Part shown: positions 10,960-33,609 of the stretch, piece after piece
Layout: every line of letters starts with the position of its first letter
Numbering within the stretch: position 1 is the stretch's first letter
Source of the DNA: Methanomassiliicoccaceae archaeon
GTDB lineage: Archaea > Thermoplasmatota > Thermoplasmata > Methanomassiliicoccales > Methanomethylophilaceae
Length of the DNA: 36,695 nt
Reading direction: 5' to 3'
Assembly (NCBI GenBank): GCA_016281925.1
Contig: JAEEJP010000012.1
Span: 1 to 36,695, forward strand
Translations under genes and position numbers: made by a program
Notes under the pieces: model-generated
The model's database searches: none
What the model saw: the letters and a program-made list of their open reading frames with translations, nothing else
Told to the model about the DNA's origin: nothing

Positions 10960-12254
10960 ACTGCCGGCCGGACGGAATGATGGGCGCCATAATCGCGTCG
11001 GAATCGCTCGGTCTCACGGACACTCTGATCAACGGGGCCGGCGGATGCCGCTCGAGAGCCCAGATAATGATGCACGACCTGATTCCGGAATACTATCCGG
11101 AGAACAGGGCATGCTCCAGATCGAAATACTTCAGCAGGCAGTCCCGCCTTCCATGCACCTATCTCGGCAACGACGACATCGTTTTCGGGGCTTCCGCCAA
11201 GGTATCTGGCGGGATAGAATCGGTATCATCCATCACCGGCAGGAAAGCCGTGCTCCTGGATACGCTGGGCGCCTCCCTTATATGCACGGATTATTCTGGC
11301 CTGACAGGCTCGGCCGGGAAAGATCCCATAATTCTGGACGGGGATCTGTCGGGGATGACCATGCCGGAAGGTTACGATGCGGCGACATCCGCGATCCTAT
11401 CCTCCGCTGAAATCGGGGACAAAGGAAACGGCGGGGTCAACATCCTCGGATACGGCCTGATGGATCTGGGCTGGCAGACCGGTGCCGAAGAGATCCGCCG
11501 CCTGCTGGAGCCGATGGGGGCCGGGGTCAATTGCATCCTGGGCTGCATTCCCGGCAAGGAATCGCTGATGGGATGCGGCGGAGCGGAGCTGAACGTCATG
11601 ATCCACCCGGAATACTGCCGCCGCACCGCCGAGATGATGCGCTCAAGGTTCGGGATCCCGTTCCTGAGACCTTCTGAAGGCTCACCAGTGGGATATCCTG
11701 CGTCCAGAGCTTTCGTCAAGGAAGTCGCGGACGCCCTCGGCCTGGATTCCTCTCCTTCGCTGGATCTCATCGACCGCGACGCGGAAGCCGTCCATAGGGT
11801 TCTGATGAATTATGAGAGGATCCCGAGGTCCCTGCATTCGGAAGGCCTGTCCGTGGAAGGAGATTCCTCGACGGTCTATCCCCTTGCGAAATGGATTTCG
11901 GGGCTGTTCGGAATGGTCCCCAGGATTATGCGCCCCCATGACGGAGAATATCTGCCGGAGATACGCTCGTATCTGGAGTCGAACGGATTCGGAAGCGCCC
12001 TGGAAGGCTCCGAAGGGAACATCGAGGCCTATTTCACGGACGGGCTGGCCGCTCTAGAAGGGAATCTGTCCAGATCCACTGCGGCCTACGTCGAGATATC
12101 CATGCCGAGAGGGAGGCCCCTCGATCTCATGGGCAGGACCCTGATCGGGACTGAAGGCTGCAGATACCTTCTCGACAGCCTGATGAACGGGCTGAGAAGG
12201 TTCAGGTGCGGCCAGCCGGAAGAAATTGAGTACCGCCCAGGCCAAAGCGTATAA
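10956..12254 (+). CDS. NifK/NifE/BchB-like component-1 partner of the NifH-D fusion
   Basis: 432 residues of the nitrogenase component-1 family (NifK/NifE/NifN/BchB/BchZ). The start at 10956 overlaps the previous stop as ATGA and has a GGGAGGGA Shine-Dalgarno. C3 (CRPDGMMGA) aligns with NifK C70 (CQPLGA), and C31 in GAGGCRSRAQ with C95 in GPxGCVAY. LPCTYLGNDDIVFGAS at 66-80 matches the NifK SMTEDAAVFGG segment. The third NifK cysteine (C153, TTCMAEVIGDD) is replaced by leucine in LDTLGASLI, leaving only two of three ligands. NILGYGLMD near residue 165 begins the central Rossmann-like domain. It probably pairs with the D part of the fusion as a heterotetramer with a simple [4Fe-4S] cluster rather than a P-cluster. 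The substrate cannot be read from sequence. Confidence 0.85.
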   Translation: MNCRPDGMMGAIIASESLGLTDTLINGAGGCRSRAQIMMHDLIPEYYPENRACSRSKYFSRQSRLPCTYLGNDDIVFGASAKVSGGIESVSSITGRKAVLLDTLGASLICTDYSGLTGSAGKDPIILDGDLSGMTMPEGYDAATSAILSSAEIGDKGNGGVNILGYGLMDLGWQTGAEEIRRLLEPMGAGVNCILGCIPGKESLMGCGGAELNVMIHPEYCRRTAEMMRSRFGIPFLRPSEGSPVGYPASRAFVKEVADALGLDSSPSLDLIDRDAEAVHRVLMNYERIPRSLHSEGLSVEGDSSTVYPLAKWISGLFGMVPRIMRPHDGEYLPEIRSYLESNGFGSALEGSEGNIEAYFTDGLAALEGNLSRSTAAYVEISMPRGRPLDLMGRTLIGTEGCRYLLDSLMNGLRRFRCGQPEEIEYRPGQSV

Positions 12255-12258
12255 ACGG
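12249..12258 (+). promoter_or_regulatory. Possible internal TATA box ahead of the permease gene
   Basis: GCGTATAAAC lies 20-29 bases before the ATG at 12278, the standard TATA spacing, and contains the TAA stop of the NifK-like gene. The permease may be both co-transcribed with the nitrogenase-like genes and expressed from its own leaderless promoter. Confidence 0.4.
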
Positions 12259-12277
12259 GATCCTTAATCGCACGCGC

Positions 12278-13897
12278 ATGTTCGGCGCGGAAAGAATAGG
12301 GACATGGATCAGGGCAGAGTTTGTCCTTTTTGTCTCTGTTCTTCTCGCTCTGATTTCGATGGCTTTCGTGCCGCCGTCGGCGGGTTATCTGGACTACATC
12401 GACGTCCCGATGCTCTGCATCCTGTTCTGCCTCATGGCATCCGTAGCCGGGATGTCCGAATGCGGAGTGTTCAAGGCAGCCGCGTCGTGGATGGTCGGAA
12501 AGACAGGCTCTGCCCGCAGGATCTGCCTGGCGCTGGTTGCCCTGCCTTTCTTCGCGTCGATGGCGATAACCAACGACGTCTCGCTGATAACCTTCGTCCC
12601 TCTGGCCGTCGCTGTCCTTTCCGGCATAGACAGAAAGGACATGATAGCCCCTGTCCTGGTGCTCCAGACCGTCGCGGCGAACCTGGGGTGCATGCTCACG
12701 CCCATCGGAAGCCCCCACAATCTGTTCGTCTGCTCGAAGTATTCCATAGGCTTCGGGGACATGGTCTCGGTGATGCTCCCATATCTGGCTATCGGCGGCG
12801 CGGCGCTGTTCGCATCATGCGCGATAATTTGCCGCGGGGAATCGCCGAAACCGGATTCCGGGGATCATAAAGCAGAGAACATGCCTCTGCTGACCGCTAT
12901 GGCAGCCGTGTTCGCACTCAGCGTGCTGGCGGTATCCGGGACCGTCCCCTACTGGGCGGCCCTCATATGCGCCGCCGCCGCAATGGCAGCGTTCAAGCCG
13001 TCCCTGTTCGGAAAAGTCGATTACAGCCTGCTGCTGACGTTCGTGTTCCTGTTCATATTCACCGGGAACCTTTCAGAGATGGAATCGGTGGCATCATTCC
13101 TGGGAGGGCTGATGGGATGGGATCCGATGCTGGTCCCGGCTCTTGCCAGCCAAGGCATCAGCAACGTGCCGGCCGCTGTCCTCCTCTCGAATTTCACCGA
13201 CGACTGGCAGAGCCTTCTTGTCGGTGTGAACGTGGGGGGGTTCGGGACCCCTATAGCTTCGATGGCGTCGCTGATAACGTTCAGGCTGTACGCGAAAGAA
13301 AAGGAGCATGACGAAAAAAGATTCGCCGGAATCTTCCTCCTGGCCAACGCCATAGCCTTCGCCCTTCTGGCCGCGGCTTATTACGCGATGGGATCGGCCG
13401 GATTCCGATCGCATCATCCCCGCATCGGGATCGGTATCCGTTGCGGTGGACTCTTTCGGGCTTGTATCTTCCGTCCTTGTGCTCCGGCCTCGTTCTGGGA
13501 TGCCCGACCGCGATCAGGCAGAACGGCTTCACGCTGTCAGGAAGGTTCAGAGCCTTCGATACGGCGTCCATCCTGTCCTGGTGGGGCGCGATCCCTATCC
13601 AGACGGTGCCTATGCCACGCGACGTGGCTGCCAGAAGGATGTTCTGGGTCGCAGCCGCGAGATCCTGCTGCCACATCATCGGCGTCTTCATCAGGCCGAT
13701 GTTCCCGAGGACGGCGATGGCCAGAGGGGCCCTGCCCACCGGGGATGCGTACGGAGCGGCATGGGACAGCTCCTCCAGCATCTTTATGTCGTCTACTATG
13801 CAGAATTCCCAGCACTGCTGGTTCATGGCGGACGGGGCTGCCATCGCGGCCCTCATCAGAAGATCCTGGTCCTCCATTTTTATGGGCTCACCGGTGA
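12278..13897 (+). CDS. ArsB/CitMHS-type anion permease with an out-of-frame C-terminal tail
   Basis: The genuine part is about 375 residues with ten or so membrane helices of the ion-transporter superfamily (CitMHS, ArsB, NhaD, SLC13). Diagnostic repeats are TNDVSLITFVPLAV near 91, TPIGSPHNLFV near 142, and the second-half SNVPAAVLLSNF ... GVNVGGFGTPIASMASLI near 290-330. The last helix (IFLLANAIAFALLAAAYYAMG) ends near 13390. Beyond that the frame continues for about 160 residues of Arg/Pro/Ser/Cys-rich sequence that is the antisense of the nitroreductase gene and is almost certainly not selected. It begins 23 bases after the NifK-like stop, so co-expression is likely and it could move the substrate or product of that enzyme. 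The transported anion is unknown. Confidence 0.8.
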   Translation: MFGAERIGTWIRAEFVLFVSVLLALISMAFVPPSAGYLDYIDVPMLCILFCLMASVAGMSECGVFKAAASWMVGKTGSARRICLALVALPFFASMAITNDVSLITFVPLAVAVLSGIDRKDMIAPVLVLQTVAANLGCMLTPIGSPHNLFVCSKYSIGFGDMVSVMLPYLAIGGAALFASCAIICRGESPKPDSGDHKAENMPLLTAMAAVFALSVLAVSGTVPYWAALICAAAAMAAFKPSLFGKVDYSLLLTFVFLFIFTGNLSEMESVASFLGGLMGWDPMLVPALASQGISNVPAAVLLSNFTDDWQSLLVGVNVGGFGTPIASMASLITFRLYAKEKEHDEKRFAGIFLLANAIAFALLAAAYYAMGSAGFRSHHPRIGIGIRCGGLFRACIFRPCAPASFWDARPRSGRTASRCQEGSEPSIRRPSCPGGARSLSRRCLCHATWLPEGCSGSQPRDPAATSSASSSGRCSRGRRWPEGPCPPGMRTERHGTAPPASLCRLLCRIPSTAGSWRTGLPSRPSSEDPGPPFLWAHR

Positions 13898-13940
13898 AAT
13901 CCCTCACGCTGACCCTGTCGAAAATCAGATTAGCGGTCAT
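13281..13940 (-). CDS. Nitroreductase-family FMN oxidoreductase with a 3' extension
   Basis: The conserved part, about 168 residues, is a typical small nitroreductase. It has RVSVRDFTGEPI at 9-20, APSAMNQQCWEF near 36-47 (FMN phosphate and isoalloxazine contacts), the helix DLAAATQNILLAATSRGIGTVWIG, and the ending RYKPERVHRN. FMN-dependent hydride transfer with NAD(P)H is expected; the substrate is undefined. After VHRNGY the frame runs another 50 residues through the convergent permease gene to a TGA at 13281, so the native stop seems to be lost. The ATG at 13940 overlaps the stop of the YqaJ-like gene as ATGA, indicating translational coupling. Confidence 0.85.
   Translation of the reverse strand: MTANLIFDRVSVRDFTGEPIKMEDQDLLMRAAMAAPSAMNQQCWEFCIVDDIKMLEELSHAAPYASPVGRAPLAIAVLGNIGLMKTPMMWQQDLAAATQNILLAATSRGIGTVWIGIAPHQDRMDAVSKALNLPDSVKPFCLIAVGHPRTRPEHKDGRYKPERVHRNGYRSRCGDDAIGIRPIPSRNKPRPEGRRLWRWPGGRFRRIFFRHAPFLSRTA
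13400..13439. terminator. Imperfect inverted repeat at the permease/nitroreductase junction
   Basis: GGATTCCGATC (13400-13410) pairs with GATCGGTATCC (13429-13439) with one mismatch across an 18-base loop. It lies where both coding regions should end, so it may be a remnant of a bidirectional terminator. There is no T-run on either side. Confidence 0.35.
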
Positions 13941-14719
13941 CTCTTCTTCCTCTTGAACGCTTTGAGATACTTCAGCACTTCCTGGTCGCATTCGGAATCC
14001 GTCCATTCCGGCGTGTATCCGTTCTTCATGTAGGTGCCGTACCACTCCTCGCACTTCGCCATGATGGGCCTCATGTCCAGCTTTTCCTTGACGATAACGA
14101 AGGTATTGTCCTCGTTCGGGACCCATTGCTTCGGGCGGTCATAATCGGATTCCTCCAGGAAACCTACGAGGAAGACGATCCTATCCAGGCCGGAAAGCTC
14201 GGCGTACAGGGACGCCTGATACATGTATTGCATCGGAACGTTGGTGTATCCTCCGCTTCCGTCCTCCCATTTCTCTCTCACGCCGGACGTTTTGATCTCG
14301 AGGATCGTATTCCTGACGTTGTCTATCCTGATGTATCCGTCCACGAGGCCGCCGAACAGCTTCTCGCCGTGGAAATGGTCGTATCCGCATTGCTCCATCG
14401 GGACAGGCTCCTCCACGGATGCGAATGATCCCTCAGGAATTCCGAGAGGACCCCTGAGCATGGCGTTCGCATGGGTCCCGAGATAATCCCTCAGCACCGG
14501 CTCGAGGATGTTCCCGGCATCGATGTATTTGGTCGGTTTGTCCCCGGGATAAAGGCCGGCAAGCTCGCAGGCGACCTTGAAAGGGGAAGAGAAATCGATT
14601 TCGCCCAGTATGGGCCCGATGCGCGTCCCGGTCATCTTCTTCAGTTTATAGGTATCGAAATACACCGTGCGCTCATCGTCGTCGATGTCTTCGATTCCCA
14701 TTCTTCCGTCATAAGCCAT
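13937..14719 (-). CDS. YqaJ/lambda-exonuclease-like PD-(D/E)XK nuclease
   Basis: About 260 residues from the ATG at 14719. Nuclease motifs occur in order: the glutamate of GNILEPVLRDY near 77, GGLVDGYI near 143 (motif D), LEIKTS near 160 (the ExK of PD-(D/E)XK) and the QYMYQASLYAELSG helix near 185. This order is that of YqaJ viral recombinase and lambda exonuclease, which degrade one DNA strand 5' to 3' for recombination. A helix before the catalytic core (YFDTYKLKKMTGTRIGPIL) resembles the YqaJ N-terminus. The frame is open upstream without a stop as far as a TAG at 14924, so it is in frame with the preceding methyltransferase. No other phage gene is nearby. The start is uncertain (14701 and 14788 are alternatives). 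Confidence 0.8.
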   Translation of the reverse strand: MAYDGRMGIEDIDDDERTVYFDTYKLKKMTGTRIGPILGEIDFSSPFKVACELAGLYPGDKPTKYIDAGNILEPVLRDYLGTHANAMLRGPLGIPEGSFASVEEPVPMEQCGYDHFHGEKLFGGLVDGYIRIDNVRNTILEIKTSGVREKWEDGSGGYTNVPMQYMYQASLYAELSGLDRIVFLVGFLEESDYDRPKQWVPNEDNTFVIVKEKLDMRPIMAKCEEWYGTYMKNGYTPEWTDSECDQEVLKYLKAFKRKKR

Positions 14720-14923
14720 GATACGGTATCGCGTTTCAGGATAACATTGTTCGCCTGCATTTCGCTCCGGCCGCGGCCAATAGGCCATGGATTGTCGTCG
14801 CGGCGCCTCGCCTTCGGAGGACAGATGCCGCGCGGCCGCTATGGCGTTGCACCAGACGATGCCGCGCGATTCCTCGTGGCTCTCCCAGATTTCCAGCGGC
14901 CTGAATCCGGAATCCCCGCATAA

Positions 14924-15400
14924 CTATCTGAGGCGGTCCAGAGTCATATCTGTGAACCAGCGCGGTCCGCTGAACCCCTCCGAATCCCCCTTCTTGAAGC
15001 ACATGAACAGGATCCCGTTCTCTTTCAGGGCGGCCCTGATTCCTTCCAGAACAGCCGGCAGCTCCGCCGAAGGGACATGCAGAAGGGAGCTGCATGCCCA
15101 TACCGCATCGAATTCACTCTCGTAGTCCAGGTCGGAGAACAGCAGCCTCCTCACAGGGATTCCCGTGTTCTTTTCCGCGATGGCACACATCCCGGCGGAA
15201 CCGTCCGTGGGAACGGCTTCATACCCCTTTCCGATGAAGAACAGCGTGTCGCGACCGGAACCGCAGCCCAAATCGAGTATCCTGCCTTTATCAGGAACAT
15301 ATCTCAGAAACTTGTCCCTGATTTCAGAGACATCAGAGCAAAACGTTCTCTCTGAATATCCTTCCGGATCCGAGTCGTAGTAATCGAGGGTATCTGGCAT
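14924..15400 (-). CDS. Class I SAM methyltransferase interrupted by an in-frame TAG
   Basis: Residues 1-158 are a SAM-dependent methyltransferase: motif I ILDLGCGSGRDT at 41-52, motif II acidic residue near PTDGS at 63-67, LDYESEFDAVWACSSLLHV near 91-109 and the post-core FSGPRWFTDMTLDRLR. The frame meets TAG at 14924-14926, but the same frame continues with a well-matched family C-terminus (LCGDSGFRPLEIWESHEES, then GIVWCNAIAAA) down to about 14815 and never meets another stop before entering the YqaJ-like gene. So this is either a methyltransferase inactivated by an amber mutation (a CAG-to-TAG change would do it) or one read through as pyrrolysine if the organism encodes that amino acid. 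The substrate is unknown. Confidence 0.75.
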   Translation of the reverse strand: MPDTLDYYDSDPEGYSERTFCSDVSEIRDKFLRYVPDKGRILDLGCGSGRDTLFFIGKGYEAVPTDGSAGMCAIAEKNTGIPVRRLLFSDLDYESEFDAVWACSSLLHVPSAELPAVLEGIRAALKENGILFMCFKKGDSEGFSGPRWFTDMTLDRLR

Positions 15401-15556
15401 CCAACCGGGAAAATGGATTCGGATATGAAATGCCTGCGAATTATATCAGCAATTCATTAAACATCAGACGGTTTGATTGGACCAGTTCTTTGTTAGATTA
15501 TAATCTGAACTGATCACAACCCAACCGCTGATTAATAAGCATTGATCAAAACTTCG

Positions 15557-16585
15557 TTATACATCCAGAGGTGTATCAAAAGTTGAATAACCTTCATATG
15601 TTCTATTGAAGAACGGACCCGTTATTGTCCATGCATATAGTTCATTATAAGAATTTGTCACAAAATAAACATTATGGGATCCAAATGTTTCTATATCAAC
15701 AGTACCTTCATAAACATATACATAGAAATCAATTCCAGAATAATCATCACCCGTGGTATCTCCATATAATTCCTTACCTCTGAAATCAATGGATGCTTTG
15801 TATTTCAGTCCATGAAGATACAAGTCCAGCTGGGATTTGGCGGTTAGTAGGTTAAGATAATTCTCTTTGCTCATGGGTATTAAATCAATGTCGTTTTTTG
15901 AAACAAGCAGTGAACCATCTTCATTTATAGATTTGATTACATATTTATCATCATATTCAATGTAATCGCCAATTTTTATATCTACTGATGAAATGTCAAA
16001 TTTTATAGGAGAATCCCATTTAAAAGCTGAATCGTCTTTGATTGGAAAATGGATATTCGTATTTAAAATGCTATCATATGACGTTTCATCCATTGAGAAA
16101 GAATATGCCCATATAACCCCACGACTGTCAATTTCAAAATGTATCCTCCATGAATCGTCCATGCATTTTGCAGTACCTTCATATATTGCTACATTCACAG
16201 AGCCATTATTCTTTTCTCCGACATGTTTTGCTTTGATTTCATAATCGTACACAACATTACGATCTGTGAAGAAATGGTCAAACTGCTTTTTTGCAGACAT
16301 TTCATTTAAGAATTCACTTTTACTCATAGATACGGTTTTATCTCTAATGTCGTTACATAGACATTCGATAGTTAAATCATCTTTATTGATTTCTTTAACT
16401 CTGTACTTGTATCCAGTCCCATTTTCGATATATTCTATATAGCTGCCTTCTCTAAGAAATACAGACGACAAGTCTTCATCAATCGAATCCTTCCATCCTG
16501 AATCATCTGAATTTGTCATGATGAAAGCGACTGCGCCTATAGCCGCAATAATTATTGCAATCGATACAACAACACTAGTTTTCAT
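15557..16585 (-). CDS. AT-rich exported or membrane-anchored two-repeat protein
   Basis: 342 residues. Residues 4-24 form an uncleaved-looking signal anchor (VVVSIAIIIAAIGAVAFIM), so the rest is probably outside the cell. Two homologous units of about 150 residues follow. The first (about 43-175) has GSYIEYIENGTGYKYRVKEI, then MSKSEFLNEMSAKKQFDHFF. The second (about 202-335) has GDYIEYDDKYVIKSI, then MSKENYLNLLTAKSQLDLYL. Each ends with a VYEGT strand. No family is recognised. Its base composition is much more AT-rich and Asn/Lys/Ile-rich than its neighbours, suggesting recent transfer or a fast-evolving surface protein. A TATA-like TATATATAAG lies near 16650 and a GGA-type Shine-Dalgarno precedes the ATG. 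Confidence 0.85.
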   Translation of the reverse strand: MKTSVVVSIAIIIAAIGAVAFIMTNSDDSGWKDSIDEDLSSVFLREGSYIEYIENGTGYKYRVKEINKDDLTIECLCNDIRDKTVSMSKSEFLNEMSAKKQFDHFFTDRNVVYDYEIKAKHVGEKNNGSVNVAIYEGTAKCMDDSWRIHFEIDSRGVIWAYSFSMDETSYDSILNTNIHFPIKDDSAFKWDSPIKFDISSVDIKIGDYIEYDDKYVIKSINEDGSLLVSKNDIDLIPMSKENYLNLLTAKSQLDLYLHGLKYKASIDFRGKELYGDTTGDDYSGIDFYVYVYEGTVDIETFGSHNVYFVTNSYNELYAWTITGPFFNRTYEGYSTFDTPLDV

Positions 16586-17185
16586 TTAAACATCTTCCAA
16601 CAATATAGTCATAGAAAATCGTCAACTTTACTAAAAAGTATATACTTATATATAATGTTTATAGAATGACAATCTGGATTGACACCAAACTTAAACCTTT
16701 CAGATGATAAACGTCTTGATAACGCCTGATAGAGCCCGGACTGGGAAGAAAAATCTTCCGGCGTCGAAACGCTACAGACTGCGCCAGCATAGCCTGCGAT
16801 AATCTTTTGCTTGCCACACCCCGCAACTTGCAGAAAGCGACAGAATTATAATTCCCATGAAATGTATTTGGATTCTCAATTAAACTAATCGTGTGGATAA
16901 TCTCTACCCAAGCCCAGAACTGTCGAGGCCTTGAACACTGAACAAAGATGGGATGATTGCCGTCCGAATTTACAGTTGGGCTGAATTGATTGAATTAATT
17001 ATAAAAAAAATCCACATTAATGTCAATCTCCAAACTCAACCCTTTCTTGTGGGTCCTCCCACCGTGCCGGACACTCCACTGACGATTCTCACCGAATAAT
17101 GCGGTTCTCCTTCACTTATAGAACGGGACCAGCATCACCCTGTCAAATTCAAAAACAAGCGCTCTGACCCGATTACATCAAAAGT
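16586..17185. other. AT-rich intergenic island with no supported gene
   Basis: About 600 bases, mostly AT-rich, between the two exported-protein genes. The left end carries the promoter of the AT-rich gene (TATATATAAG on the minus strand near 16650). The rest has frequent stops on both strands. A GC-richer block at about 17037-17130 differs in composition from its surroundings and may be a fragment of a mobile element or an old coding end. I could not identify it. Confidence 0.4.
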
Positions 17186-17205
17186 GGGCGGATTTTACGC
17201 CGCCC
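17186..17205 (-). terminator. Intrinsic terminator after the large BspA-type gene
   Basis: GGGCGG (17186-17191) pairs with CCGCCC (17200-17205) across eight bases, 11 bases beyond the TAA of the large surface protein. On the minus strand it is followed by ACTTTTGATG. Confidence 0.55.
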
Positions 17206-17215
17206 GGTAACATGT

Positions 17216-20200
17216 TTACGCCGGGACCAATTTGGTCGCCTTGCCGACGAAAGTCATCCCCGACAGGGAATCGGCCGAGACGGAGATCCTCTTCCCGGCT
17301 TCCGGATCCCAGAACAGGCAGCCGTAGAACGAATTGCTCGTGACCGAGGATATCTCCCCGAAAGCGATTCTCTTGAGGCCCATGCATCTGTAGAACGCGC
17401 TGATCCCTATGCTCACGCCGTCGCAGAATTCCAGGGATTCCAGCGATGAGCAGCCGTAGAACGCGTATCCTTCGATCTTTTCCACGCCGCTCAGGGACGC
17501 CGACGCCAAAGACCTGCAGTTGGCGAACGCTTTCAGCCCTATGGCTCTGACATCGCCCAGATCGGCGGCGGTCAGATCCGCACATCCGTAGAACGCCTTC
17601 GTCCCTATTTCAGAAACAGAGAAGTCGAATCCCAGGTACCTGACCGATTTCGGGACGGCCAGACTCACGGGGGCCCCGCCTTCGTATCCGGTGAGGCTGG
17701 CTTCGGATCCGGAGATCAGCCTGTATTTCAGCCCGTCCGAAGAGAATTCCTCCCCTGCCGACGGCCTGTAAAGGGTCAGCGACCTGGAGCTTCCGGTAAA
17801 TCTGTGCCTCGCCAGCTGGTCGTCCCCCATCAGTTCGCCGTCCTCGGAATAGAATTTGGTCCCTATGAACGAATTCTTCCCCATCCTGAACGATTCCGGG
17901 AAGGTCACGTCGGAAAGGCTCCTGCAGCCGTCGAATATGTTTGTTCCCAAAGAAGTCTCCCCGGTGAATTCAATGGTCTTCAGATTGGTGCAGGAGTAGA
18001 ACGCGAAGAAATAGACGGATCCGCGTATTCTGAGAGACTCTAGATTGGAGCAGTACGGGAACGATTTGTATCCCACTTTGCCCACCGCGGAAAGGTCCGC
18101 CGTCACAATGGATTTGTTCCCGCTGAATGCCCTGTCGCCTATGCTTTCCACGGAATAAGACGCACCGCCGTATTCTATGGATTCCGGTATCACCAGATTC
18201 TTCCCGTAAGTTTTGGAGCAGCCGGTGACTTCCACCGCGTTGCCTCCGTCGTCCGAGCGCAGTATCGTATAGTAAAGGCCGTCGAGCAGGAAAGTGGAGC
18301 CAACCCCCACCGGACCGTATTGGGCATAGAAGCTCATGTCGGATTCGGGGACCAGCAATTCCCCGGCCACATAGTCCTTCCCGGTGCCGTCCGGCTCGGT
18401 GTTCCAGCTCCTGAACTCGGATCCGTCCGGTATCGGCGTCCCTTCGCGGATCCCCGGGAATGTCATGTCCTTTCCGGTTATCCAGATCTCCCGGTCCACC
18501 GTGCAGCTCTCCAGTACGCTGATCTCCCCGGTGACCGTCGTCCTCATGGTGCCCCTGTTGTTCAGAAGCTTCACGACGGCCGAGAATCTGTGCTTCCCTA
18601 TCTGCTCGAATGTGGGCTCCGCGACCAGCAGGGTCCTGTCGGCTGTGGAGCCGTCGGCATCGCATCTCATCCATCCTTCGGCCCCGGCAATGGATTTCAC
18701 GCCGAACATATCCTGCTGGGAAGTCCTGTTCAGAGCGAGGAACAGCTTCTGGCCGGCGGCTACCTCGAATTTCCCGATGTCGACTGTTCTGCCGTGGATT
18801 CCGGCGTCGGCCTCGGCGTAAGTATCCCATCCGGATTCGGCCATGTTGTAGAAGCTGAGCACATAGAATTCAGCGATGTCGTAATCCCTCATGGTGAACG
18901 TTCCGAAAGAAGCGCTTCTGGGACCGGATTCGCGCTCCTCCTCCGGCACACGGTGGGAACCGAACGAAGGGCATACTCCCGACGATGAGATCTCGAATCT
19001 GATGCTGATCCTCTGCCCCGGGACGACGTCCTGGGGGATCGTGACGGTGTCGAACGCCCCGTCTCTGCCGCAGACATACTTCTCGCCGAAGATCTCCATG
19101 GTCAGAGATGTATCCGCCCCGTATGGCTGGGCCGATGCCGGGACGCGGATCCCGGTGGCGAAGAAGCTTATCCTGTCCCCGGGCATGAACGACACCACCG
19201 ATCCGCTGTCCTGGTTGACCGCGTACATATGCATCTTCATGCCTCTGACGACTTGGTATGAGACTTTGCCGTCTTCTTCGACGGACACGATGTTCGGACC
19301 TGCGACGATCTTGGCGCGGCACCATGTATCGGACGCTCCCGTGGGGGATTTCGAGAACGATGCTATGCTGCCGCCTTCGAACACCGGATTGTACTGGAAC
19401 GATTTTCCGGCGTATTTCTTGTCGATGTACAGCAGACCTCTGGAGTAGGCGTCGGGATAATACAATACGTCCAGATCGGAATCGAAATGGTTTCCGCAGT
19501 CCCTGCCCGAGCCGCCGGTCTTGCTCTGCTTCACGCCGATATCCGGCCCGGCTCCGTCTCCGACGGTGACCACGAACAGGCCTGTGCATTCCGGGGACGT
19601 GGCGCTTAGAAGCTTGTCCTCCATCCCCGGGACGTTCAGATACCTCACGGAAATGGCGTCGCATGATATCAACACGAAGGCAGTGCCGTCCCTGGCCGCG
19701 GACATCCTGTTCCCGTCGAATTCCACCGCATCGCTCTCCCCTCCGTCGGGAGACATAGCGCGGAAGGAAAACTGCGGCCTAAGGAAGATCCCGTATCTGA
19801 AGTCGTCGTCGGTGTATGTGTTCCTCTGGGGATTGATCTCGAACGTGTCCCCTTCCTGCATCCTCAGGAACCCTTCGGCGTTGATGTTCAGCAGCACCTC
19901 CGACGGGCGGGCCGCATCGATCTCGTCTTTCGGATGCGATTCCATCTCTTCACGTGTGATAGCGGCCTTCAGCCCTTTCTTCATGACCATCACGCAGCAT
20001 GCATCGGCGCAGCCCTCCAGCGATACGCGGAACCCGTAGGTGTATCCGGGTATCAGCCTGTAAGAAAGGGCTGTCTCGTCGCCGGCTGTCTCGCTGGAGA
20101 TCGGCCTGATGGGGAACGGCGCGGCCCTGCCGGAAGATTCCATCCCCATGACCGTCTCCGATCCGGAAGGCACCGTAAGCATGAATTCGTATGCCGCAGG

Positions 20201-20755
20201 CAGGACGGACTTGTATGACGGTTTGACCGAGGACAGCGTCAGTGCCCTGTATACGGGGCAGAACCCGTGCGCGGCCCTCTCGTCCGTCGGTATGAACGTG
20301 ACCTCGGCCAGATCGCCCTTGTCTGCGACGATCTTCATCCCATTATCGCCTTCTGAAATGGGATTGAACGATGCCTTGCCTTTGTTCAGCAGGATCGATT
20401 CCCCATAGTCCGGCCCGTATTTCCACCCGGAATTGCCGGCGGATATCGTGGTGGCGAAGAACCTGTGCGTCCCTCCTGCCTCAGCGTCTATCTCTTTCTG
20501 ATAGTAGATGTTCCCTTCCGCGTCGCGGACGGACATGGTATATTTCCCTGGCTCCAGAGATGCGGCCGTTATGCGGTCGCAGATGCTGACGGCGCAGACT
20601 TCCTCACCTCCGGAGGCGAACACCGCTTCCGCCTGGAACGGAAGCGATCCGCTCACTTTCGTCTGGCACGCATCCCCTTCCGAATCCGGGGAAGGCACCA
20701 GTAGCATGATGGCAGCCGCCAGCAGGACGGCCGCCGCGATAAGTTTCTTTGTCAT
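17216..20755 (-). CDS. Large secreted BspA-type leucine-rich-repeat surface protein
   Basis: About 1179 residues from the ATG at 20755, chosen because a signal peptide follows at once (MTKKLIAAAVLLAAAIMLLV) and a GAGG lies 7 bases ahead. The first 780 or so residues are beta-rich extracellular sequence with no family I recognise. Around 780-845 is an InlB/Flg_new-type B-repeat (FRSWNTEPDGTGKDY, MSFYAQYG). From about 850 to the end are BspA-type LRR_5 repeats with the recurring AFYGCADL/AFANCRSL/AFYGCSSL pattern. There is no C-terminal membrane helix, so it is secreted or held non-covalently. Such proteins mediate attachment or interaction with other microbes in gut archaea. A hairpin terminator follows. 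Confidence 0.88.
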   Translation of the reverse strand: MTKKLIAAAVLLAAAIMLLVPSPDSEGDACQTKVSGSLPFQAEAVFASGGEEVCAVSICDRITAASLEPGKYTMSVRDAEGNIYYQKEIDAEAGGTHRFFATTISAGNSGWKYGPDYGESILLNKGKASFNPISEGDNGMKIVADKGDLAEVTFIPTDERAAHGFCPVYRALTLSSVKPSYKSVLPAAYEFMLTVPSGSETVMGMESSGRAAPFPIRPISSETAGDETALSYRLIPGYTYGFRVSLEGCADACCVMVMKKGLKAAITREEMESHPKDEIDAARPSEVLLNINAEGFLRMQEGDTFEINPQRNTYTDDDFRYGIFLRPQFSFRAMSPDGGESDAVEFDGNRMSAARDGTAFVLISCDAISVRYLNVPGMEDKLLSATSPECTGLFVVTVGDGAGPDIGVKQSKTGGSGRDCGNHFDSDLDVLYYPDAYSRGLLYIDKKYAGKSFQYNPVFEGGSIASFSKSPTGASDTWCRAKIVAGPNIVSVEEDGKVSYQVVRGMKMHMYAVNQDSGSVVSFMPGDRISFFATGIRVPASAQPYGADTSLTMEIFGEKYVCGRDGAFDTVTIPQDVVPGQRISIRFEISSSGVCPSFGSHRVPEEERESGPRSASFGTFTMRDYDIAEFYVLSFYNMAESGWDTYAEADAGIHGRTVDIGKFEVAAGQKLFLALNRTSQQDMFGVKSIAGAEGWMRCDADGSTADRTLLVAEPTFEQIGKHRFSAVVKLLNNRGTMRTTVTGEISVLESCTVDREIWITGKDMTFPGIREGTPIPDGSEFRSWNTEPDGTGKDYVAGELLVPESDMSFYAQYGPVGVGSTFLLDGLYYTILRSDDGGNAVEVTGCSKTYGKNLVIPESIEYGGASYSVESIGDRAFSGNKSIVTADLSAVGKVGYKSFPYCSNLESLRIRGSVYFFAFYSCTNLKTIEFTGETSLGTNIFDGCRSLSDVTFPESFRMGKNSFIGTKFYSEDGELMGDDQLARHRFTGSSRSLTLYRPSAGEEFSSDGLKYRLISGSEASLTGYEGGAPVSLAVPKSVRYLGFDFSVSEIGTKAFYGCADLTAADLGDVRAIGLKAFANCRSLASASLSGVEKIEGYAFYGCSSLESLEFCDGVSIGISAFYRCMGLKRIAFGEISSVTSNSFYGCLFWDPEAGKRISVSADSLSGMTFVGKATKLVPA

Positions 20756-20838
20756 ATCACAGCCTCGGCCTCGGGAACCGCGGGATTCCTTCGGCACCGG
20801 GCTCTGGCTGTGGGCGCTTATATCGGGATCGCGTGCGG

Positions 20839-21414
20839 TCACGCATCATCCGGGTATGTCCTGTACCAGAACACCCCGAAGCATTGGCATGGGGCCCCGC
20901 AGATTGGGCAGTTGTGCCCTCCCGGAGATGACACCATCCTGTTCCAGTATCCGCGCAGGGCTATGGTCTCGGACAGCCCCATTCCGGTCAGCACCCCGGC
21001 TATGTTCGTCTTTCCGCTGACGCTCTTCCAGGCCATGGCGCAGATCATCGTGCACCCTCCGGCCAGCATCTCTTCAGCGGACCTTCCGCACAGGAGCGTC
21101 CCGATCCCCCTGCCTTTCATCCCCTCTTTTATCGAGACCGAATCCAGAAGGCCTATCTTCCTCTGCCGCATCACCTCGTCCCTCTCGGGGCAGTCCGGGA
21201 GCCCCAAGGCATCCGGCTCCTCTTCCGGCGGGAACATGCGGCAGACCGCGAAACCTACCGGCACGCCGTCCGCCGATGCGACGTTGCAGAACTGTTCCGG
21301 ATCGTCCATCGCGCGGCGGAAATCCGATGCGTCCAGATAGTCTGACCCGAGTTCCCTGAGAGAAATCTCTAAAACAGCCGGGATGTCCTCCTCCCTGAGC
21401 CTGCGGATCTCCGT
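20839..21414 (-). CDS. GNAT-family N-acetyltransferase without a canonical start codon
   Basis: About 190 residues. The fold is GNAT: IRRLREEDIPAVLEI opens the first strand and helix, VGFAVCRMF is strand 4, and RGIGTLLCGRSAEEML is the acetyl-CoA pyrophosphate loop (R/QxxGxG/A). Further on are MVSSPGGHNCPICGAPCQC, with cysteines that could bind zinc, and a short C-terminus. The coding region begins where the pseudouridine synthase ends but in another frame, and there is no ATG, GTG or TTG near the expected start; an AGGAGG lies at 21426-21431. The given start (ACG at 21414) is a placeholder for the earliest residue of the domain. Either a non-standard start, a frameshift from the upstream gene or a sequence error explains this. 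The substrate is unknown. Confidence 0.7.
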   Translation of the reverse strand, partial: TEIRRLREEDIPAVLEISLRELGSDYLDASDFRRAMDDPEQFCNVASADGVPVGFAVCRMFPPEEEPDALGLPDCPERDEVMRQRKIGLLDSVSIKEGMKGRGIGTLLCGRSAEEMLAGGCTMICAMAWKSVSGKTNIAGVLTGMGLSETIALRGYWNRMVSSPGGHNCPICGAPCQCFGVFWYRTYPDDA

Positions 21415-22124
21415 CGCAGTCCCAGCCTCCTGTAAAGCTCTGTGCGCTCCGCCTTGCTGATGTCCCTGTAGCGGCCTTCTTTGAGCTTCCCCAGCTCGAT
21501 GTTCATGATTCTGACGCGCTGGAGATCCAGGACTTTGTAGCCGAAATGCTCGCACATCCTTCTGATCTGCCTGTTCAGCCCCTGCCTGAGGACGATTCTG
21601 AACTGGTCGTCCCAGATCCTCTCGACCTCGCATCTCTTCGTCATCGCTCCGTCATCCAGCCTGACCCCTTCGGACATCTTCCTGAGGAAGGCGTCGGTGA
21701 TTTCCTTGTCCACGGTGACGACGTACTCTTTGTCGTGCTCGAATCTCGAGCGCATGATCCTGTTGGCCAGCTCCCCGTTGTTGGTCATCAATAAAAGGCC
21801 GCGCGAATCCTTGTCCAGACGGCCCACAGAATAGATCCTCTTGGGATATCCTATGAAATCAATGACGTTGTCCGGATCGTCCGGGCTGGACGTGCAGGTG
21901 ATCCCGCGGGGCTTGTTGAACACCAGGATTATGTCTTTCTTCTCTCTGGATATGGGCTCCCCGTCGACGCAGACCACATCCCCGTCCCTGACTATGTCTC
22001 CCAGCTCCGCGGCTCTTCCGTTGATAGTTACCCTGCCTTTCCCGATCAGGCGGTCGGCCGCTCTGCGGGAAGCGACCCCGGATCCGCTGATGTACTTGTT
22101 GAGGCGGGTTCCATCCTCTTCCAT
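21369..22124 (-). CDS. RsuA/RluB/RluF-type pseudouridine synthase
   Basis: 251 residues. Residues 6-50 are an S4 RNA-binding domain (RLNKYISGSGVASRRAADRLI, GRVTINGRAA), followed by the TruB/RsuA-type catalytic domain with GRLDKDSRGLLLMTNNGELANRI near 99-121, where the catalytic aspartate is in RLDKDS, and LRQGLNRQIRRMCEHFGY near 178-195. It converts a uridine in rRNA to pseudouridine; RluF/RluB specificity cannot be settled. The last 15 or so residues (RRRSAGSGRRTSRLF) look out of frame, and the frame ends at a TAG (21369), unusual here. This subfamily is typically bacterial, so transfer is likely. It overlaps the GNAT gene. Confidence 0.88.
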   Translation of the reverse strand: MEEDGTRLNKYISGSGVASRRAADRLIGKGRVTINGRAAELGDIVRDGDVVCVDGEPISREKKDIILVFNKPRGITCTSSPDDPDNVIDFIGYPKRIYSVGRLDKDSRGLLLMTNNGELANRIMRSRFEHDKEYVVTVDKEITDAFLRKMSEGVRLDDGAMTKRCEVERIWDDQFRIVLRQGLNRQIRRMCEHFGYKVLDLQRVRIMNIELGKLKEGRYRDISKAERTELYRRLGLRRRSAGSGRRTSRLF

Positions 22125-31752: not shown

Positions 31753-32427
31753 ATGTTCGATCTGTATGTGGTGACCGACGCATCGCTTTCGAGGAGGCTC
31801 TCGGAGGCCCAGACCGCCGAGCTGGCCTACAGAGGCGGCGCGGATGCGGTCCAGCTCAGGATGAAAAGGGCGGACGGCAGAGCCATGCTGGAGCAGGCCG
31901 ACGCCATAAGGAAAGCGGCCGACGATTACGGCAGATTCTTCTTCGTCAACGACAGGGTGGATATCGCCATGATCTCTGGCGCAGACGGAGTGCATCTGGG
32001 CCAGTCCGACATTCCTGTGGCGAGAGCGAGGGACATCATGGGCGAATCGGCCATCATCGGAGCATCCGTAAACACGCTGGAGCAGGCGGTGAAGGCCGAA
32101 GAAGAAGGCGCAGACTACGTAGGGGTCGGATCGGTGTTCACGACGTCCACCAAACCAGACGCGAAGCAGGCGATCGGATTGGGCCCGGTATTCGAGATTT
32201 CCCGCGGGATAGGCATCCCGGTCGTGGCCATCGGAGGGATAAACCGCGGAAACATCCAGGATGTCATCAAAGCAGGCGCCGATTCGGCCGCGGTCGTTTC
32301 CGCCGCCGTCGGACAGCCCGACATCTCCGCCGCGGTGCATGAGCTCAGGGACCTGATCCTGAAGGTCAGGCCGCATGTGGCCCCGGATGCCAGAGGGGAT
32401 TCCCTCAGAAGGAACCTCGCGATCTGA
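31753..32427 (+). CDS. thiE: Thiamine-phosphate synthase ThiE
   Basis: 224 residues, the normal length. ThiE motifs are all present: DLYVVTDASL at 3-12, AVQLRMK at 33-39 (diphosphate-contacting QLR(E/M)K), FFVNDRVDIAMISGADGVHLGQSD near 58-81 (Mg2+ aspartates), and GSVFTTSTKPDA near 122-133, followed by VVAIGGIN near 158. It condenses HMP-PP with thiazole phosphate to thiamine phosphate. With ThiDN at 27.6 kb the genome has both the ThiN and ThiE routes. ThiE is transcribed alone, with a 70-base divergent spacer from the radical SAM gene. Its last 23 bases overlap the methyltransferase on the other strand. Confidence 0.94.
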   Translation: MFDLYVVTDASLSRRLSEAQTAELAYRGGADAVQLRMKRADGRAMLEQADAIRKAADDYGRFFFVNDRVDIAMISGADGVHLGQSDIPVARARDIMGESAIIGASVNTLEQAVKAEEEGADYVGVGSVFTTSTKPDAKQAIGLGPVFEISRGIGIPVVAIGGINRGNIQDVIKAGADSAAVVSAAVGQPDISAAVHELRDLILKVRPHVAPDARGDSLRRNLAI

Positions 32428-32992
32428 GCGGCTTCCTGAACAGGCATTCGGCGCGGGATCTGACCGTCCCGAATCTGGTGGGCTCATCCTTCCTTTCCGA
32501 GGACACGACTTCCATCGACGGGAACAGGGCGCATATCCCGTCGGCGCCGAAGTATCTATAGAAAAATCCGTCCCTTCTCGCTCCCGAACGCATGTCGTCA
32601 GGCGTGAAGCATCTGACAAAGATGTATCCGCCCGGTGCCAGCACCCTCTCCATCTCTCCGGCGGCTTTCTCAAGCTTCCCGTCCTCCAGATTCTCGAGCA
32701 CATGGACGGCGGTGACATAATCGAACGATCCGCCGGGGAAAGGCAGCTCGGAGGCGTCCGACACGAAGAATTCCGCGTCCGGGAAGAGCTCGGCGCATTT
32801 TCCGACGGCAGCAGGGGAGAAATCTATCCCGGCGACCCGGAATCCTGCATCCAGAAGCGAGGAGACAGTCTTTCCGTTTCCGCAGCCCACATCCAACGCC
32901 CTCCCCGAGCAAGGCACCGGGATTCCTGAATTCCCTCTCCATGCGCGGGGATTCCCGCGGTAGAAGGCGTCCCACAGTTCCCTCTGGTCCAT
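32405..32992 (-). CDS. Class I SAM-dependent methyltransferase (UbiE/type-11-like)
   Basis: 195 residues from the ATG at 32992, selected for the GGGAGGG Shine-Dalgarno. Motif I ALDVGCGNGKTV is at 32-43 and the acidic residue at GIDFSPAAV near 54. SDASELPFPGGSFDYVTAVHVLENL near 78-102 is the motif II/III region and VLAPGGYIFVRCF the motif IV strand, as in UbiE and tellurite-resistance-type methyltransferases. The substrate is unknown. It follows the HEPN-like gene on the same strand, whose frame overlaps its first 168 bases, and its 3' end meets ThiE convergently. A functional link to the HEPN-like protein would be guesswork. Confidence 0.85.
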   Translation of the reverse strand: MDQRELWDAFYRGNPRAWRGNSGIPVPCSGRALDVGCGNGKTVSSLLDAGFRVAGIDFSPAAVGKCAELFPDAEFFVSDASELPFPGGSFDYVTAVHVLENLEDGKLEKAAGEMERVLAPGGYIFVRCFTPDDMRSGARRDGFFYRYFGADGICALFPSMEVVSSERKDEPTRFGTVRSRAECLFRKPLRSRGSF

Positions 32993-33609
32993 CGGTCCCT
33001 CCCGCATAAGGATGACATCCACCTGTAGGTGAGCATCGCCGCCTCCGAGGACAGCATGACGTACGTGTACGGGGGCCCTTTCATCATCCTCTCCGGGCGC
33101 ATGGATATCCTCAGGCCGTCAAGGAGGAACACCTCGGACCGGTCCGACACGGCATTGTTATGGACGACGAGATTCCTCATGAGGAGGATCTTCTCCCATC
33201 TGGCGAGGTCGTCCCCGTCTATGTATCCGAGCTCCGCCGAAGCCGATATTATGTCGCGGAGATACATCCTTCCGCCCTTCTCCATCGCCTTCGCCCTTAC
33301 CGGGGAGTCTTTGAGGAGCCTCATGCAGTCCCTGGCCCCCTTCTCGGCGGAAGACATGGCATTCACGAAAAGATTCCTGGTGGAGACCATGATCCTGTCG
33401 ACCATCTCGTCCTCGGTGCCTTCCTGGCCTTCCCAGACGCTGCCGTAGAAACCGACGATCTCGCGCGTCATGACGGCCTGGTTGTGCATGTTCCAGAAGC
33501 ATACCGGACGAGGATCGTTCTCCCGGTCCGCTATCTTCGATCCGGTCTCGGATGCCAGCCTTGCGGTCTCCTCGGCGAATGCGTCCAAACGATCGGTGAC
33601 AGTGCTCAT
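32824..33609 (-). CDS. HEPN-like protein with an RNxxxH motif
   Basis: The first 200 or so of 261 residues are helical. Residues 145-150 read RNLVVH in ARWEKILLMRNLVVHNNAV, a textbook HEPN R-x4-H motif, with two helices on either side; HEPN proteins are often RNases in toxin-antitoxin and defence systems. No MNT nucleotidyltransferase partner is next to it. A second part, RPVCFWNMHNQAVMTREIVGFYG near 34-56, suggests an unknown fused region. From about residue 200 the frame runs out of frame into the methyltransferase gene and ends at TAG (32824), so the native protein probably ends near 32995. The HEPN reading is moderate because a single motif carries it. Confidence 0.65.
   Translation of the reverse strand: MSTVTDRLDAFAEETARLASETGSKIADRENDPRPVCFWNMHNQAVMTREIVGFYGSVWEGQEGTEDEMVDRIMVSTRNLFVNAMSSAEKGARDCMRLLKDSPVRAKAMEKGGRMYLRDIISASAELGYIDGDDLARWEKILLMRNLVVHNNAVSDRSEVFLLDGLRISMRPERMMKGPPYTYVMLSSEAAMLTYRWMSSLCGRDRWTRGNCGTPSTAGIPAHGEGIQESRCLARGGRWMWAAETERLSPRFWMQDSGSPG

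Follow-up and report, generated by a model that had tools for sequence, protein, structure and literature searches.

The window analysed here is the whole of contig JAEEJP010000012.1 (36,695 nucleotides; C31 of our set) from a genome of 1.96 Mb in 122 contigs, estimated to be 85.89% complete. On its (−) strand a small methyltransferase (MT) gene is followed in the same frame by a putative nuclease gene. The first part of the MT (14927–15400 (−), ATG at 15398–15400) comprises 158 codons and contains the SAM-binding core with the motif DLGCGSGRD. The open reading frame 15400–14924 (−) ends with MTLDRLR and then TAG, so the interruption of the MT frame by the TAG at 14924–14926 (−), reported in the initial annotation, stands. 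This codon occupies position 159 of the MT and is proposed here to encode pyrrolysine (Pyl). Another 31 codons (14831–14923 (−)) cover the end of helix 154–163 and the strands 167–176 and 181–189. They are followed by a stop-free spacer of 37 codons (14720–14830 (−)), the would-be linker of a fusion, in which the MT stop of other genomes is missing. The spacer includes an AT-rich promoter-like element, AATGTTA (14742–14748 (−)), 23–29 bases upstream of the ATG of the YqaJ-like or MAGa7180-like putative nuclease (13937–14719 (−)), which starts with MAYDGRMG and ends at the TGA 13937–13939. The open frame of 487 residues described earlier is exact, as no further stop occurs until the nuclease TGA; with the TAG read as residue O159, the MT spans residues 1–190 and the nuclease residues 228–487.

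The MT is a class I SAM-dependent methyltransferase. It matches PF13649 with 48.3 bits (cut-off 27), and the Pfam match, the AlphaFold2 model and the PDB matches together give motif I, the Rossmann core and the C-terminal strands 6 and 7. The model of residues 1–190, built with 16 sequences, has a mean pLDDT of 95.6 and places the TAG site inside helix 154–163, with the strands 167–176 and 181–189 after it. Hence, according to the model, a product ending at residue 158 would lose strands 6 and 7. The top PDB match is the SAM-dependent methyltransferase RPA2492 (PDB 3e23), with TM 0.88 by query and 32% identity over 192 alignment columns; unlike the archaeal MT, it is bacterial. A restriction-modification DNA amino-methyltransferase was also considered. 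The catalytic motif IV of those enzymes is [DNS]PP[YFW], and the matching MT region reads, by sight, WACSSLLHV; since the motif is missing there, this assignment was dropped.

The C-terminus DSGFRPLEIWESHEES had been called family-like, and it is: all 15 aligned relatives from the genus continue across the TAG column, with W183 invariant and W172 nearly so. This alignment holds 16 of the 17 MT sequences of the genus, L016 being omitted as nearly the same as L015. At the TAG column its 15 relatives carry R, S, Y, D, A, G, E, P, K or I. Among the best 80 of 435 confirmed loci, which include L107 from a Candidatus Methanomethylophilaceae archaeon of sheep rumen, the column is filled by a residue in 78, most commonly E (25), Q (8), D (7), S (7), R (6) and K (6). 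The alignment of homologues proposed in the initial annotation, with Gln, Tyr or Lys in mind, thus gives sense residues at this column, in the wider set mostly E, and Q, K and Y also occur. At E ≤ 1e-30 the MT is found in 17 of 31 genomes of the genus and in 21 of 102 in the family.

Log-odds scores from a coding model trained on the source genome change sharply along the read-through frame, from +4.4 (+0.14 per codon) over the 31 codons that follow the TAG to −22.4 over the 37 beyond them (14720–14830). Together with the alignment, these scores argue for a family protein that extends to about 14831, followed by a spacer that happens to be free of stops. Selection was assessed on either side of the TAG with a codon model giving the source-genome branch its own omega. 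Before the TAG, this omega is 0.12 (background 0.083) and omega = 1 is rejected (2 dlnL 20.7). After the TAG it is 0.175 (background 0.131), and the test against omega = 1 falls short of the 5% level (2 dlnL 3.44). Neither value differs from its background (2 dlnL 0.91 before the TAG and 0.09 after it). The residues after the TAG diverge no faster than in the TAG-free relative G008: summed by rows, identities to 13 outgroup sequences are 147/383 for the source MT and 149/383 for G008. The relative rate and the omega values argue against a long decay; they do not argue against a very recent stop, since the branch to the source genome is long and a recent TAG would be invisible in omega.

The earlier suggestion that decoding is possible in principle, to be checked by looking for the pyl genes, is borne out by the genome, where PylS, tRNA-Pyl, PylB, PylC and PylD are all present. 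PylS (255.9 bits), PylC (306.8 bits) and PylD (198.5 bits) score above their cut-offs, and tRNA-Pyl with the anticodon CTA (CUA) adjoins pylS on its 5' side. PylB is split by a contig break, its halves lying at the ends of C94 and C8 and covering positions 6–178 and 193–347, and each half scores below the full-length cut-off. The source genome also has two genes for the monomethylamine methyltransferase MtmB, with one TAG per gene. Folding of the sequence after the MT TAG, in a search for a Pyl-insertion hairpin, gave an unexceptional result (z −1.64; 7 of 200 shuffles as stable or more).

Use of TAG was counted with a codon-model gene caller over 336 kb, or 17.1% of the genome. The 228 ORFs kept end with TGA in 182 cases, TAA in 25 and TAG in 21 (9.2%), where the 21 include the MtmB genes, other internal TAGs and doubtful ORFs. 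The share is well above the 1.6% given for M. alvus in a published survey (PMC4153887), although it is raised by the internal TAGs and doubtful ORFs counted in it. An earlier count on longest-ORF calls (TAG in 35 of 223) was dropped in favour of the codon-model set, because many of those ORFs looked false. In the samples from relatives, TAG ends 7 of 61 ORFs in G020, 7 of 80 in G008 and 2 of 29 in G018; several of these have a coding-like continuation, and two of those in G020 are its MtmB genes. In the source genome, sequence beyond the stop is coding-like in 7 of 21 TAG-ended ORFs vs 17 of 207 ended by TAA or TGA (Fisher p 0.003). When only continuations without a separately called in-frame gene are taken, the counts are 4 of 21 vs 4 of 207 (Fisher p 0.003). 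Three TAG-ended ORFs (L078 1129–1542, L085 721–1260 and L078 9647–10243) have a further stop 0, 5 and 19 codons past the TAG, respectively, and look like true ends. These ends and the TAG share of 9.2% speak against a code in which all TAG codons are sense, and no such code is claimed for the source genome.

Another gene with an internal TAG encodes diphthine synthase (L080:12627–13421 (−)). Read through TAG188, it matches TIGR00522 over residues 5–257 (278.3 bits vs 114.3). The enzyme has a match in 28 of the 31 genus genomes (E ≤ 1e-20), and the internal stop occurs in the source genome only: the other 27 genomes have E, L, A, T, Q, D, K or I at this column, and the 95%-identical G019 has GAA. 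A HAD hydrolase likewise matches TIGR01460 across its own TAG (130.5 bits vs 100.15). An NTP transferase and a Sel1 protein have coding-like sequence past the TAG; for the NTP transferase, the best-scoring match above the Pfam cut-off stops before the TAG. The comparison of TAG sites with relatives covered the diphthine synthase and the MT.

Some further cases of altered gene ends were observed. An ORF at L086:11628–12662 (−) has two in-frame TAGs and a coding-like continuation, with no Pfam match and weak FliH-type matches past the first TAG. In an RluF-like pseudouridine synthase gene (window 21369–22124 (−)), 7 of 7 relatives have their terminal TGA near LGL, in five of them at the very codon that is CGA in the window; there a TAG follows 15 codons on, with 65 codons more to a stop. 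This would be a second lost TGA within one window. The ORF at 32824–33609 (−) of the window passes the point where the next methyltransferase gene (32405–33022) starts and meets no stop before a TAG; its continuation past this TAG is strongly noncoding-like, and perhaps another stop has been lost here or a frameshift has occurred.

The gene joined to the MT falls below the cut-offs of both families it resembles (PF09588, 21.6 bits with a cut-off of 22; NF045870, 128.3 bits with a cut-off of 225), and its LEIKTS fits the E-x-K motif by sight. An alignment of 36 sequences combined 15 of the 17 MT rows (two of them as fused proteins) with 21 of 26 nuclease references. The nuclease is present in 27 of the 31 genus genomes, 10 of which lack the MT at E ≤ 1e-30. 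In the 17 genus genomes with the MT, the nuclease is fused to it or lies within 61 bases downstream in 9 and is 359–551 bases off in 4; the locus as fetched contained no nuclease in the remaining 4. In G024 and G023 (loci L021 and L022), the MT-nuclease spacer of about 360 bases shares segments, for example AGTGCGGGCAGTCCGGTG, and a small RNA gene may lie within it.

The same join is found in the sister genome G020, a relative from the genus, there in the absence of a TAG. The MT stop of G008 is a TGA; the same codon is CGA in G020, and the G020 spacer is open and resembles that of G008. A single base of the stop codon, next to a spacer that was already open, thus accounts for the G020 join. 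In the window the usual MT stop is gone as well. G019, the closest genome by diphthine synthase, gives ten DNA matches of 81–222 bases to window positions 11000–18500, all within the stretch belonging to the gene 17216–20842, so that the ancestral state of the join is not readable from it. In the whole-protein model, residues 194–234 fall below pLDDT 50; its overall confidence is lower (mean 75.0, pTM 0.46), and parts of the nuclease also score low.

Counted over the 27 genus loci, positions −29 to −23 before the nuclease ATG each have 70–96% AT, and −11 and −10 have 89%; elsewhere only −33 (74%) exceeds 70%. This is the spacing expected for an archaeal promoter with a leaderless transcript. 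The AATGTTA element is thus a candidate promoter, promoter-like in sequence and position, that fits leaderless transcription of the nuclease. The linker is noncoding-like and predicted to be disordered, and the nuclease has a conserved promoter-like element of its own, hence the nuclease is probably an independent gene and the fusion a tolerated extra product. The fusion by read-through proposed in the initial annotation therefore holds as a predicted frame, with the same join in G020, and is unlikely to be the chief feature of the locus. Literature searches on leaderless transcription in this order and on YqaJ-methyltransferase fusions in methanogens yielded nothing relevant among the papers listed.

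More distant MT relatives, bacterial ones among them, seen among the best 80 of the 435 loci, bear on the question of a nuclease partner. In L131 and L151 the MT carries a fused PLD/ResIII-helicase part, and in L145 it forms one protein with an HNH nuclease. An HNH_4 gene lies directly upstream of the MT in 9 of 54 loci (L110, L133, L142, L150, L153, L161, L168, L172 and L184, the L153 match being below the cut-off). A ResIII helicase is next to the MT downstream in 5 of 53 and upstream in 3 of 54 (4 and 2 of them identified). Most neighbours in the same set are of other kinds, with CvfB upstream in 15 of 54 and ABC transporters downstream in 10 of 53, and all these counts are raw, taken without a matched background. 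The 54 upstream neighbours come from 61 on the same strand, and the 53 downstream ones searched against Pfam are 52 of 59 on the same strand plus the opposite-strand neighbour of L107; the same 7 loci, with matching neighbour coordinates in related clostridia, were omitted on both sides. With the PADLOC models, the window MT hits mad2 (43.8 bits); for the L131 and L151 proteins the hits are to models of type IV restriction enzymes. These associations make a nuclease partnership plausible for part of the MT family, and a functional MT-nuclease protein in the source archaeon possible. We also note two loci of unusual layout. In L110:1374–5563 (+), from a Clostridia-labelled MAG of horse faeces, the MT is flanked by the HNH_4 gene on one side and, on the other, by a gene with the REC and PI domains of Cas12a (Cpf1). 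In L167:2501–5569 (+) the MT is extended in frame by about 830 residues with no Pfam match.

We suggest that the TAG is a sense codon for pyrrolysine in a small class I MT, and that its fusion with the nuclease most likely came about as a tolerated side product when a stop was lost. On the sequence evidence, we put the probability of this reading at about 0.78. In this gut/rumen-group Methanomethylophilaceae archaeon, tRNA-Pyl(CUA) and PylRS would decode the TAG in the MT, and ribosomes are expected to insert Pyl at residue 159. Pyl would be tolerated there rather than catalytic, as relatives hold exchangeable residues at this position. Because the usual MT stop is missing, a ribosome that passes the TAG would read on to the stop that closes the nuclease gene, giving a two-domain protein of 487 residues. 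The nuclease is most likely also made alone, from a leaderless transcript starting at its own ATG, and the fusion would then be a by-product of the lost stop and not a dedicated enzyme. Several points count against decoding, among them that the gene is accessory, that the loss of the usual stop could be a second sign of decay, and that TAG is not rare in the sample.

The opposite view is a nonsense pseudogene. The initial annotation had left the choice between it and read-through undecided; the tests run favour read-through, and we consider the pseudogene unlikely. If it were correct, the TAG would terminate translation, the 158-residue product without strands 6 and 7 would be inactive and decay would have begun, with the nuclease unaffected because of its own promoter. 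Such a fate suits a dispensable MT, found in 17 of the 31 genus genomes at the threshold above, and the close relative G019 has a weak MT match (E 3.7e-5) and no nuclease match; the lost MT stop and the independent promoter-like element of the nuclease fit it as well. However, the part after the TAG is as conserved as in the TAG-free G008, the branch omega is low, and in-frame TAG also occurs in MtmB and the diphthine synthase of the same genome. An error of assembly or sequencing, with a true sense codon such as CAG, GAG or AAG, is highly improbable: the assembly is fragmented into its 122 contigs, but the frame is intact on both sides of the TAG, and several in-frame TAG cases in the source genome, two of them in MtmB, indicate that such a codon is normal there.

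An evolved functional fusion, with MT and nuclease working as a single protein whose amount is gated by Pyl decoding, gains from the in-frame join in two species, from the fusions and proximity to HNH, PLD-helicase and ResIII genes among the best 80 of 435 loci, and from the mad2 match. We nevertheless regard it as quite unlikely, given that the linker is noncoding-like and disordered, that the G020 join takes one base in a stop codon plus an open spacer, and that 10 of the 27 nuclease-bearing genus genomes do without the MT while the nuclease keeps a promoter-like element of its own. Still more speculative, and improbable in our view, is the idea that the MT works alongside DNA nucleases in defence-like modules, next to or fused with HNH, PLD-helicase and YqaJ-like nucleases in unrelated microbes, and that in this archaeon the pair forms one protein made only with Pyl. 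If true, the supply of methylamine or Pyl would control the synthesis of an MT-nuclease effector.

The locus is further evidence for TAG decoding by Methanomethylophilaceae in ordinary genes beyond the methylamine enzymes, and the diphthine synthase is a striking second case. Since TAG would be decoded in ordinary genes, standard gene calling would truncate such proteins. A side effect may be that, where TAG is not terminating and native stops drift, neighbouring genes become joined in frame; the present locus suggests that in such joins a leaderless-type promoter can keep the downstream gene independent.

The classical Pyl enzyme is MtmB, which has an amber-decoded residue, as is proposed here for the MT. 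In MtmB the Pyl is catalytic and conserved. The MT differs in that its TAG column is variable, and Pyl would stand in there for exchangeable residues. An archaeal genetic code with all TAG codons read as pyrrolysine has reportedly been described by Kivenson and colleagues (Science 2025), and such a code would predict exactly this kind of MT read-through.

In the order itself, Borrel et al. listed for M. alvus 16 extra predicted Pyl proteins, including a 262-residue putative methyltransferase and a Sel-1 protein, and among the homologues they name, half have no TAG in the other two genomes (PMC4153887). For ISO4-H5, 46 genes with an in-frame amber codon are given, with the methylamine genes counted in (PMC5011839), and a review notes that tRNA-Pyl and the release factor compete (PMC9499178). 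The present case resembles these published Methanomassiliicoccales cases in having an in-frame TAG in ordinary genes of a gut genome with pylTSBCD (PMC4153887, PMC5011839). Pyl in ordinary proteins of this order is thus an already published prediction, to which the MT adds one more probable case. Unlike the published Methanomassiliicoccales cases, as far as they are described in the passages cited, read-through of the MT would here also join the neighbouring gene.
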